Shown here: positions 19,995-23,111 of the stretch, piece after piece
Layout of the letters: each line of letters starts with the position of its first letter
How positions within the stretch are numbered: position 1 is the stretch's first letter
Source: a virus
Virus record (IMG/VR): IMGVR_UViG_3300050821_004647
Coordinates: 1 to 28,167 of that record
DNA length: 28,167 nt
Reading direction: 5' to 3' (one strand)
The notes under the pieces: generated by a model
Told to the model about the DNA's origin: nothing
What the model saw: only the letters and a program-made list of their open reading frames with translations
Databases searched by the model: none
Made by a program: the position numbers and the translations under genes

Positions 19995-20329
19995 AGCGCG
20001 GCCCCAGGACCGACAGGCACGTCCAATTGGACGCTCTGCTCATTGGTGACGCCGTCCAGAATCAGCGTGGCCTGTCCATCAGCGCCGCGTTGCAATTGCA
20101 CGCCAGTCAAGGCAATGCGTTGCTCCCAGCGCAGCACGGCATAAGCCGTGGCGGCATAGATGCGCAGGACCGTGGCGCCGTTCAAGGGCTGGTCGATCAG
20201 CTCCGGTACTTCGGACCCATAGTCGCGGCGCATGACGCGGGAACCGATGGGCGTGGTGAGAATGTCGGCCAGGGACTGGCGGATGTGGGCGAGGCGAGAC
20301 ATAGGGCGGCCTGTGCGGGCGTTCATCAT
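19991..20329 (-). CDS. W: baseplate wedge protein gpW (gp25-like)
   Basis: A 112-aa protein of the T4 gp25-like / P2 W family (P2 W is 115 aa). The conserved part runs HIRQSLADILTTPIGSRVMRRDYGS, ended by the typical EVPELIDQPLN. I start at 20329, where ATG overlaps the V stop as ATGA and AGGTGG is seven bases upstream. A later ATG at 20302 (MSRLAH) would be nine residues shorter and has a poor ribosome site. Confidence 0.92.
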   Translation of the reverse strand: MMNARTGRPMSRLAHIRQSLADILTTPIGSRVMRRDYGSEVPELIDQPLNGATVLRIYAATAYAVLRWEQRIALTGVQLQRGADGQATLILDGVTNEQSVQLDVPVGPGAAL

Positions 20330-20991
20330 TTCGGACCACCTGATTCGTCTTCGCCCTTTTTGACGCCGCCGTGCGGGTGCTTGACCAGGCTGATGCCGGC
20401 AGCGACCACGTCCATGGTGGCCTGGATGATGCCTTGCACCACAGCGGCGGGGCCGCCAGCCTTGCCGGCTTTTACATTCATGCCAGCATTCAACGCCGAC
20501 ATGCCGTTGACGGTCAGGTTCTGGTTGACGACCAGATTCTTTTGCACCAGCAGGTTGCCGGTGCATTCCGTATCTTCGGCATTCGAGGTGACTTTGCCAG
20601 GCGCCAGGGTGACGCTGGTGCCGTCCGGCAGCGTGGCCGTCAGGGTATGCGCGGCGCTGTCGTACTGGACGACCGTCCCGTCCTTATAGCGGGTCGTATG
20701 GTGTGCCGGGTTAGTGGACGGCGATTTGTATTTGTCGGAATAGATCGCCGGCAGGATCGCGGCATTGGCGAAATCGCCTTCAGGCGACAACACAATGACC
20801 TGTTCGCCCATGGAAGGCGGAAACCAGGTCTGTGCATCGCCGGCGCGGGAGGTGATCCAGGGGCGCCATGTGGTGGTGTTTTTTCCTACAAGGACGCGGA
20901 CACGCTGGGCGTCATGATCGATGTCGGCAACGGTGCCGAATCGAATCAGATTCAGGATTAAGCGCAGCAGTTCGGAGTAGTCAGCAGTCAT
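20326..20991 (-). CDS. V: baseplate spike protein gpV
   Basis: A 221-aa protein of the P2 V / gp5-like spike family. The OB-fold part runs from FGTVADIDHDAQRVRVLVG past PWITSRAGDAQTWFPPSMGE, matching P2 V. A beta-helical repeat region follows, and the C terminus has H205-P-H207, like the HxH that holds iron at the tip of the P2 spike. I start at M20991 (MTADYSELLRLI); ATGs at 21000 and 21057 are also in frame and no start has a strong ribosome site. It is the first gene of the tail operon, so a late promoter is expected just upstream. Confidence 0.9.
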   Translation of the reverse strand: MTADYSELLRLILNLIRFGTVADIDHDAQRVRVLVGKNTTTWRPWITSRAGDAQTWFPPSMGEQVIVLSPEGDFANAAILPAIYSDKYKSPSTNPAHHTTRYKDGTVVQYDSAAHTLTATLPDGTSVTLAPGKVTSNAEDTECTGNLLVQKNLVVNQNLTVNGMSALNAGMNVKAGKAGGPAAVVQGIIQATMDVVAAGISLVKHPHGGVKKGEDESGGPK

Positions 20992-21291
20992 GCGTTGCAT
21001 GTTGCCGGGTTGCCGGAATCGGCGCACCTGGTAGAGGGTTGATATCAAGCTTACCAACTACCGGTATGTACTTATGGTGATGAGGTGCCTTCTATGCCGG
21101 TCAAAACAGACGCGGCGATGTGGGCCGTTGGTGGTTTCATTCATCCCCCTCTGCGCACCACACGCAAGCATGGTCAGGACCCGTCACCTGTGCAAGCGGT
21201 AACGCTAACATGCATCGATCAAATTTTGTTGCTAAGCAAAGTCACTGCTGTCACGTTTGCCAGTTGAAAAATAATCGTAAATACCGTTTCA
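20992..21291. other. intergenic region upstream of gpV
   Basis: No gene is called in these 300 bases. By analogy with P2, the Ogr-dependent promoter for V should be here, reading leftward, but I could not find a clear TGTTGT-N12-ACAACA site. A palindrome TTGCTAAGCAA (21229-21239) is present; its role is unknown. A 60-codon plus-strand frame at 21085-21267 has no family or ribosome site and is left out. Confidence 0.4.
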
Positions 21292-21319
21292 TTGACATCA
21301 CGTTCTCCCAACCTATTTT
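21292..21319 (+). promoter_or_regulatory. sigma-70 promoter of the opposite-strand cassette
   Basis: TTGACA (21292-21297), a 16-base spacer and TATTTT (21314-21319) lie just before the start at 21335. The -35 box matches the consensus perfectly. It faces against the late genes and would let the cassette be expressed in the lysogen. Confidence 0.65.
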
Positions 21320-21334
21320 TGAAAAGAAAAAATC

Positions 21335-21661
21335 ATGACAGCAGATCATTGGGGTGTGAAATTTTCCAGGACACCTATTGTGAGGACCGTTGAGATTAGC
21401 CATAACTCTATAACCGTAGCATGGTCGGCCCCCGTCATGAATCGACGGATCACCGCTTATCAATTCATGGTTAGAAAGGGCGATCCCAACGGTTCGCAAG
21501 TGCCGATCGGCGTATTGGCTTGTCCTAATAATTTCCCTCCTTATCAGCACGAAATCGGTTCACTTATCCCAAAAACGGTCTACTACATTCAAGTACGGGG
21601 CATCGATTCTGGTGGCGATCCAAGTAATTGGTCCAGGCAGCAAGTGTTCAAAACACTGTGA
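21335..21661 (+). CDS. small fibronectin type III-like protein (accessory gene)
   Basis: The 108-aa product is almost wholly one FN3-like domain: SITVAWSAPVMNRRITAYQF with the core Trp and Tyr of strands B and C, then YYIQVRGIDSGGDPSNWS with the tyrosine-corner region and FG loop. No signal peptide or membrane helix is present, so it should be cytoplasmic or carried on a partner. It lies on the plus strand between two minus-strand tail genes, has its own promoter, and is visibly lower in GC than the late genes, the mark of an inserted accessory gene. In P2 the non-essential orf30 lies at this S-V place. FN3 domains often mediate carbohydrate or protein contacts; function here is open. Confidence 0.75.
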   Translation: MTADHWGVKFSRTPIVRTVEISHNSITVAWSAPVMNRRITAYQFMVRKGDPNGSQVPIGVLACPNNFPPYQHEIGSLIPKTVYYIQVRGIDSGGDPSNWSRQQVFKTL

Positions 21662-21779
21662 AGTGTTACGTTTTCCCGCGCCAGAACTTCCATGGCGTTG
21701 ATTCCCGAGATACTCACGCGTCCGTCAAATGATGATGCGCGAAGAAATTTAATTAAAGAATTTCACCTCTGAGGGCACA

Positions 21780-22013
21780 ATGAAATCGATCAAATGCAAA
21801 GAAAAACTTCGCGACGATCAATGGGAAAAATTGGCGCATAGCCTGTCAGTAGCGACGAGGATAAATTTGGCCAAGCAAGACTATCGTTTGTTTATTGAGG
21901 CCGTATTGTGGGTCATCTTAAATAACAAAGCTTGGAGCGATATTCCGACACATTTCGGAAACGCAAAAAGCATCTATACATGTTTTTATCGGTGGAACGA
22001 ACGCGGGATCTGA
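21780..22013 (+). CDS. orphan IS5-type transposase N-terminal domain (DUF4096-like), truncated
   Basis: A 77-aa protein matching the N-terminal DNA-binding part of IS5/IS4-family transposases: LRDDQWEKLAHSL, then DYRLFIEAVLWVILNNKAWS, DIPTHFGNAKSIY and FYRWNERGI. A typical transposase continues with Trp and then the DDE catalytic domain; here TGA stands where the Trp codon is expected and no DDE domain follows. GAGGG is 5-9 bases before the ATG. No inverted repeats of an insertion sequence were seen around it. It follows the FN3-like gene by 118 bases in the same direction. It may be a decayed transposase or an adapted DNA-binding protein. Confidence 0.72.
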   Translation: MKSIKCKEKLRDDQWEKLAHSLSVATRINLAKQDYRLFIEAVLWVILNNKAWSDIPTHFGNAKSIYTCFYRWNERGI

Positions 22014-22214
22014 CAATTGTTGGCACGACGGTCAACGAGTGATCACGAATTGCACCGGATGCTGATGCAGATTAATGAACGTTGCGATTTCATGAATAGG
22101 AGAAGGGAACGTCGCTTTCAAAATCTGATATCGATTCAGCCTCAAACTATCGTTCTCCCGGAAAAGTGCCAAGATGGCGTAATAGTGCATCACGAATCAA
22201 TGCTTGATCGGTAG
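22014..22214 (+). pseudogene. in-frame continuation after the TGA stop
   Basis: After TGA at 22011-22013 the same frame is open for a further 66 codons (QLLARRSTSDHELHRMLMQI at the start) and stops with TAG at 22212-22214, 21 bases before a strong terminator stem. This fits a former single protein of about 144 aa cut by a TGG-to-TGA change. A TTG at 22017 could start it separately, but no ribosome site supports this. The last 68 bases overlap the 3' end of gene S on the other strand. Confidence 0.45.
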
Positions 22215-22626
22215 CACTGAAACCAAGTAAAGGCCGGGCCGGATAGGGATATGCCGGCCCTTTTTTTGCGACCTTGTCGCTCAATCCCTCCTGGTGTACG
22301 CGGGCGATCCGCGCCACGCGCCCAAAGAAGCCGACCGAAAGCTGATTTTCGTCCCGCTCGATCTTGAGATTTTTCTGTGTGCGGATTTTCTCAAACATCG
22401 CGGCTTTCTGCCGTTTGATTCTCCCTTTCTTACCTCGCAGATTCTTGCGTTGCTTGCGCGCCGCATAGGGTGCGCCGTCCGGCGCCTCCTGGCCGGCGAT
22501 GCGCTGGGCCTGGCTGCGCCGTAAATCCTGGGCTATGCGGCGCGTGACGACGCGACGTTGGCTGGGTTGGAGCTGGGCCAACAGTGCGCCGGCCCAGGCT
22601 TCCAGGGCGTGAAGATCGTCGCTCAT
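22147..22626 (-). CDS. S: tail completion protein gpS
   Basis: A 159-aa P2 gpS homologue (P2 S is 150 aa), needed to complete the tail and join it to the head. The start MSDDLHALEAWAGALLAQLQ and the block RKNLRGKKGRIKRQKAAMFE are typical, as is PARPLLGFS near the end. The ATG at 22626 overlaps the R stop as ATGA; the frame is open eight residues further but that is less likely. Downstream of its end comes the opposite-strand cassette rather than V. Confidence 0.93.
   Translation of the reverse strand: MSDDLHALEAWAGALLAQLQPSQRRVVTRRIAQDLRRSQAQRIAGQEAPDGAPYAARKQRKNLRGKKGRIKRQKAAMFEKIRTQKNLKIERDENQLSVGFFGRVARIARVHQEGLSDKVAKKGPAYPYPARPLLGFSATDQALIRDALLRHLGTFPGER
22236..22267 (+). terminator. terminator of the opposite-strand cassette, inside gene S
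   Basis: GGGCCGG (22236-22242) pairs with CCGGCCC (22254-22260) over an 11-base loop and is followed by seven T (22261-22267). It is in the right orientation to stop the plus-strand cassette after the frame ending at 22214. It lies in the coding part of S, where the same bases encode KKGPAYPYPARP on the minus strand. Confidence 0.72.
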
Positions 22627-23111
22627 TCGGGATTGGCCGGTGTATGCCATTCGGCCAGCAATGCGTCGCCCACATAGGCTTGCCAGAATTCGTCGGTAAA
22701 TGCCGGGGTCGATTGTGGCTCGGCCAGGTGCAACACTTCCAGCCGACCGGCGCCGGCTGGCTTCACTACCACGCGCTCAGTCAATGCCAGCGTGATCGCT
22801 ATATCAATGGATTCGGAATTGTTGTAATCGACATCAAAGCTGATACCGGTTTTGCGCAGCTCGGCGTTGTCTAGCAGGTCGCGCTGGTGTACCTGGACCC
22901 AGGCCAGCAATGGGACCATGAGCGCATCCTCGCTGTCGCTGTAGTCGGTGATGATGATGTTCAGCTTATACCGATATTCAAACGACAGGGAAGCGGTGCC
23001 GGTCGCCACCGTATTGCCGCCGTCCGCAAAAATCAACAGCTTTTCGGGATTCTGTCGCAATTCGGCGCTGACTGTGGTCAGGTGCGCTCTAAGGCTTTTT
23101 GGCTTGTACAC
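22623..23111 (-). CDS. R: tail completion protein gpR
   Basis: A 162-aa P2 gpR homologue (P2 R is 155 aa), acting with gpS in tail completion. It begins with a GTG codon at 23111 (VYKPKSLRAHLTTVSAEL); I prefer it over an ATG at 23195 because GGAGGAAG is six bases upstream and the residues from here match the family. Typical features are FEYRYKLNIIITDYS and the end AFTDEFWQAYVGD. It overlaps the Rz1-like gene by 23 bases and S by ATGA. Confidence 0.92.
   Translation of the reverse strand: MYKPKSLRAHLTTVSAELRQNPEKLLIFADGGNTVATGTASLSFEYRYKLNIIITDYSDSEDALMVPLLAWVQVHQRDLLDNAELRKTGISFDVDYNNSESIDIAITLALTERVVVKPAGAGRLEVLHLAEPQSTPAFTDEFWQAYVGDALLAEWHTPANPE

Follow-up and report, generated by a model that had tools for sequence, protein, structure and literature searches.

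The window, meaning the whole 28,167-nucleotide stretch of DNA that was analysed, is a P2-like prophage record adjoining guaA, whose host is best explained as Collimonas or a close relative. Between the tail genes V and S, both of which run leftward, it carries a plus-strand unit of two genes, an FN3 gene and a DUF4096 gene, the second of which is overlapped by the 3' end of S (Table 1). Pfam matches to both frames and to their flanks uphold the preliminary description of this locus as an opposite-strand unit with an FN3-like and a DUF4096-like gene. Its remark that the unit is AT-richer than the tail genes is likewise correct, as GC content is 0.449 in the cassette, 0.599 in V, 0.591 in S and 0.574 over the window.

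Table 1. Features in and around the S-V gap of the window.
Feature	Position	Strand	Support
Gene V (baseplate spike), left neighbour	20326-20991	-	Pfam Phage_base_V 3.5e-18, Apex 7.3e-7
Dyad GTTGGTAAGCTTGATATCAAC, located before V and not part of the cassette; possible site of the late activator	21038-21058	-	Found by alignment in most of 14 relatives
Leader of the cassette, conserved, containing TTGACA (21292-21297) and TATTTT (21314-21319)	21248-21334	+	Homology start common to five copies; consensus match
Solo FN3-domain protein, 108 aa, intact	21335-21661	+	Pfam fn3 2.7e-7
DUF4096 gene, interrupted: 77 codons, TGA at 22011-22013, conserved frame onward	21780-22214	+	DUF4096 1.5e-14
Gene S (tail completion), right neighbour	22147-22650	-	Phage_tail_S 4.5e-37
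Intrinsic-terminator-like hairpin and T7, antisense within gpS codons (KKGPAYPYPARP)	22236-22267	+	About -17 kcal/mol

The S-V position, that of orf30 in P2, is a documented acquisition locus in P2-like phages, occupied by an Old homologue in KS5 and by a plus-strand methylase in KL3 (PMC3091744). Its earlier designation as a moron or accessory site is borne out in our own comparison, in which the S-V gap ranges from about 0.45 to 5.4 kb across 65 related contigs containing both genes, with one outlier that has no gap. The cargo of these relatives includes methylases, AbiTii, AbiJ, Old, PDC-S06, AbiEii-type ATPases, a HicB domain and a Com zinc ribbon. The FN3-DUF4096 cassette occupies 3 of 66 S-V intervals, and thus consists of extra genes at a syntenic site that are absent from most relatives, as expected of a moron and not of DNA with late-gene composition shared by all of them, the outcome that the preliminary description had named as contrary to its proposal. 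The location is already known, and what is new there is the cargo. As a separate observation, a D12-class adenine methylase lies antisense on the V side of the gap in many close relatives (L001, L002, L003, L006, L012 and L014), accompanied in several gaps by a Com-like zinc ribbon; the window's gap contains no such methylase.

The proposal that the cassette has its own -35 and -10 elements stands in part. A TTGACA-16-TATTTT arrangement is present at 21292-21319 and agrees with the consensus at 10 of 12 positions, but consensus matching alone performs near chance, with 3 promoter-like sites found and 2.1 expected. Conservation of the leader, which can be aligned in all five known copies of the cassette while the DNA upstream of about 21248 is not common to all, is the better support for a promoter here. 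The late promoter of V had been placed inside or against the cassette, and this is not supported, as a dyad that is conserved ahead of V, and has no second example in the window, falls outside it. This dyad may be the late-activator binding site in this clade, in which case the site would be unlike the TGT-N12-ACA motif of P2; a search upstream of V for that Ogr-type motif found none near the gene.

A terminator-like hairpin (stem 22236-22260, T7 22261-22267) does lie downstream of the cargo on the appropriate strand, but its assignment to the cassette does not hold: it is part of the gpS coding sequence, and 19 of 21 close gpS genes have an antisense hairpin of this type irrespective of what lies between S and V, including where the FN3-DUF4096 pair is absent. 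Synonymous-codon shuffles of the close gpS genes reach the observed hairpin strength in a median of 1% of trials, and the hairpin in the gpS genes of the window and of L001-L023 thus appears to have been kept beyond the demands of protein sequence. In a more distant gpS clade the hairpin is found in 16 of 42 genes. Most cargo of the close clade runs antisense to S, and most of that in the distant clade lies on the strand of S, a pattern that fits a terminator shielding the late genes, with kinship as a confounding factor. A putative antisense terminator within gpS codons would account for the tolerance of P2-like phages towards cargo that interrupts a late operon on the opposite strand.

Five copies of the cassette were found in total. 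Besides the window, two P2-like contigs (L004 and L013) carry the pair in their S-V gaps in the same order, on the same strand and with similar spacing, and Collimonas humicola (L081) and another Collimonas genome (L116) carry it at a single syntenic chromosomal site, with flanks about 90-92% identical. The chromosomal copies are probably phage-derived and were then retained, because each bears a gpS relic at the 3' end of its DUF4096 gene and because homology between phage and chromosomal copies ends within the gpS hairpin; between the two chromosomal copies, omega is 0.09 for FN3 and 0.22 for DUF4096. Our search for an empty chromosomal site found a single third species with the neighbouring gene, which there stands in another context. 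No copies were found on plasmids, and phage records returned only remote FN3 and IS5 matches to the cassette genes. FN3 distances and DUF4096 distances disagree as to which copies are closest, a conflict hinting at recombination within the cassette. Comparison of the five copies establishes, at the level of sequence, that the two genes form a conserved, transferable unit under selection, which runs antisense to the late genes and has a conserved leader of its own. Collimonas humicola contains, at a distance of about 4 kb from its cassette, a further gpS C-terminal relic (L081:1919-2011), which suggests another fossil of a phage gap.

The first gene of the unit is intact and under constraint, with omega of 0.09-0.37 over the five copies. 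Its FN3 assignment rests on a Pfam score of 31.1 against a gathering threshold of 25 bits and on a predicted beta-sandwich model (mean pLDDT 73) that matches FN3 structures such as 6x39 (TM 0.73/0.78). No signal peptide was seen by inspection, and comparison with PHROG gave weak matches only. An origin of the gene in the host was considered and rejected, as six Collimonas genomes contain no paralogue.

The second gene is interrupted in this copy, and the earlier description of the cassette as complete is not confirmed. Codon 22011-22013 is TGA in the window and TGG in the other four cassettes, and the tryptophan it replaces is invariant in the 21 other family members of a 22-row alignment into which the window was entered with TGA read as Trp. 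Beyond the stop the frame stays open and conserved for 67 codons, to 22214, so that an open reading frame at 22017-22214 is the continuation of DUF4096 and not a separate gene. Because TGA takes the place of this tryptophan, which follows a helix-turn-helix-like part and is present in all four cassette relatives, the window's cassette is probably half broken, and the record probably holds a broken member of what we describe below as a solo DUF4096 family of Collimonas. Omega is 0.12-0.45 for residues 1-76 and 0.09-0.41 for residues 79-112, past the stop, where the values against relatives are 0.12-0.41; the nonsense change therefore arose recently, is a mistake in the record, or is overcome by read-through. 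Given a nonsense codon in the putative regulator, this copy probably makes only the FN3 protein and a 77-residue putative DNA-binding fragment. Nor is the gene an orphan transposase N-terminus, as had been supposed: its cassette relatives encode a full single-domain protein of about 130-146 aa from a non-transposase family, of which the window copy is a nonsense-cut member. The predicted model of the DUF4096 protein, built from a 4-row alignment, is all-helical with a long C-terminal helix and has no structural relative in the PDB at Z of 4 or more.

This family is large in Collimonas. Six genomes (G001, G211, G031, G133, G156 and G120; loci such as L116-L175) contain 73 DUF4096 genes, 7-17 each, many of whose proteins end in an ESTLHWVGLV-like motif and whose loci lie near adhesins, TetR and other regulators. 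In other Oxalobacteraceae (G004, G113, G029), DUF4096 belongs to real insertion sequences, which have a D-S-T-x-V-R-A-H motif and a second frame and reach 12 identical copies; unlike these, the Collimonas paralogues are divergent and syntenic between species, with seven orthologues beside one tetR gene showing omega of 0.10-0.26. The motif containing the first Asp of the DDE triad is present in 11 of 14 insertion-sequence copies, 0 of 60 solo genes and 0 of 5 cassettes. The six genomes give 24 DDE matches, and just one of the 73 DUF4096 genes has a DDE domain at a distance of up to 2 kb, in opposite orientation to it; no DDE domain accompanies the cassette gene, either in its own frame or in the next one. 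In a tree, one branch (support 99/100) separates solos and cassettes from insertion sequences, with the cassettes nested among the solos. Insertion-sequence debris is rejected on the evidence of purifying selection, synteny, the absent catalytic motif and this tree, and these comparisons place the cassette DUF4096 in a non-transposing family related to the N-termini of IS5-type transposases.

Twenty-five of the 73 DUF4096 genes lie within 3 kb of the end of a trimeric autotransporter adhesin gene, where random placement predicts 1.6, and all 25 are on the strand of the adhesin; they are spread over several separate clades of the tree. The nominal P of 3e-23 is overstated because the count includes orthologues, and only about a third of the solo paralogues are near adhesins. 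At one locus (L170, G120:C1:3065409-3066176), an adhesin gene is immediately followed by an open frame of 311 aa that encodes two DUF4096 domains in tandem. Our literature search found no work on a solo DUF4096 family, the papers that name DUF4096 being off topic by title and abstract, and none on the regulation of Collimonas adhesins.

We propose, with a probability of about 0.42, that the cassette is lysogenic-conversion (moron) cargo at the orf30 site, expressed in the lysogen, which pairs a domesticated transposase-derived DNA-binding regulator with an FN3 protein-binding partner. The cassette promoter would fire in the lysogen, in which the late genes are switched off. The DUF4096 protein, whose DNA binding we infer from its family origin, would regulate the cassette itself, host surface-gene loci, or both; the chromosomal paralogues cluster at such surface loci, those of trimeric autotransporter adhesins. 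FN3 domains ordinarily bind proteins, and the FN3 protein would act as a cytoplasmic partner of the regulator. The terminator embedded antisense in gpS would stop transcription and spare the late genes from read-through, and the outcome would be an altered host surface or expression state. A broader history, which we regard as doubtful, is that a single domestication of an IS5-type transposase DNA-binding domain, in the lineage of Collimonas, gave rise to a large family of regulators that stand alone and in many cases control surface adhesins; P2-like phages would have captured one of these together with an FN3 partner and would use it, from the S-V site, to reprogram the surface of the host. 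Through the cassette, phage cargo is connected with a protein family that is undescribed, is expanded in the genus and has a piece of a transposase as its sole recognised domain. If the regulator reading is true, 7-17 putative regulators per genome in these six Collimonas genomes are hidden under the DUF4096 label, about a third of them adjoining giant adhesin genes, and the phage has one of its own.

The chief rival is a two-gene phage-exclusion or defence module, in which FN3 would provide a sensing or binding part and DUF4096 a DNA-binding partner or repressor, together blocking superinfection. Defence genes are frequent at the S-V site, and the Abi-type, Old, PDC-S06, HicB and methylase cargo of relatives favours exclusion over regulation; a two-gene cassette with its own leader, kept after prophage loss in two chromosomes, would suit it too. 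Weighing against it, neither protein contains a recognised enzymatic or toxic domain, and the chromosomal DUF4096 paralogues adjoin adhesin and regulator genes; a known anti-phage defence family was rejected, as neither protein matches a PADLOC-DB 2.0.0 profile. On balance we consider an exclusion module somewhat unlikely. A second explanation concerns the window copy alone and is compatible with both regulation and exclusion: the TGA may be a sequencing or assembly error, or may be read through as Trp, leaving the window's cassette functional and complete. The open frame past the stop, with its low omega, and the TGAC context, which is leaky, speak for this, and we nevertheless think it unlikely, as the TGA rests on a single record and the codon is a stop in none of the relatives. 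Decay of the second gene in the window record is a real possibility, but that the cassette as a whole is functionless passenger DNA, an IS5 remnant beside an FN3 fragment, is improbable: the nonsense codon and the finding of only five copies would fit, and purifying selection over those five copies, the conserved leader, intact copies elsewhere and membership in a non-insertion-sequence family argue otherwise.

Several known systems resemble the cassette in part. The cargo of P2 orf30, KS5 and KL3 also lies between S and V, and that of KL3 also runs against the tail genes and extends over the end of S, but the cargo differs, and the FN3-DUF4096 pair is not among that given for these phages (PMC3091744). 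The cassette FN3 has the fold of the FN3 domains of phage tail proteins, from which it differs in being solo and antisense to the late operon. The cassette DUF4096 is homologous over about 75-85 residues to the N-terminal domain of IS5-family transposases (PF13340, NF033580), but scores 59 bits where NF033580 sets a cut-off of 110, lacks the catalytic motif and a downstream DDE frame, and occupies stable single-copy loci. Transposase-derived regulators are known in bacteria, among them the TnpB-derived TldR and InsA of IS1. The cassette protein, a putative regulator, comes from another transposase family and has no RNA guide; what it would share with TldR and InsA is the DNA-binding part of a mobile element, apparently retained without transposition.
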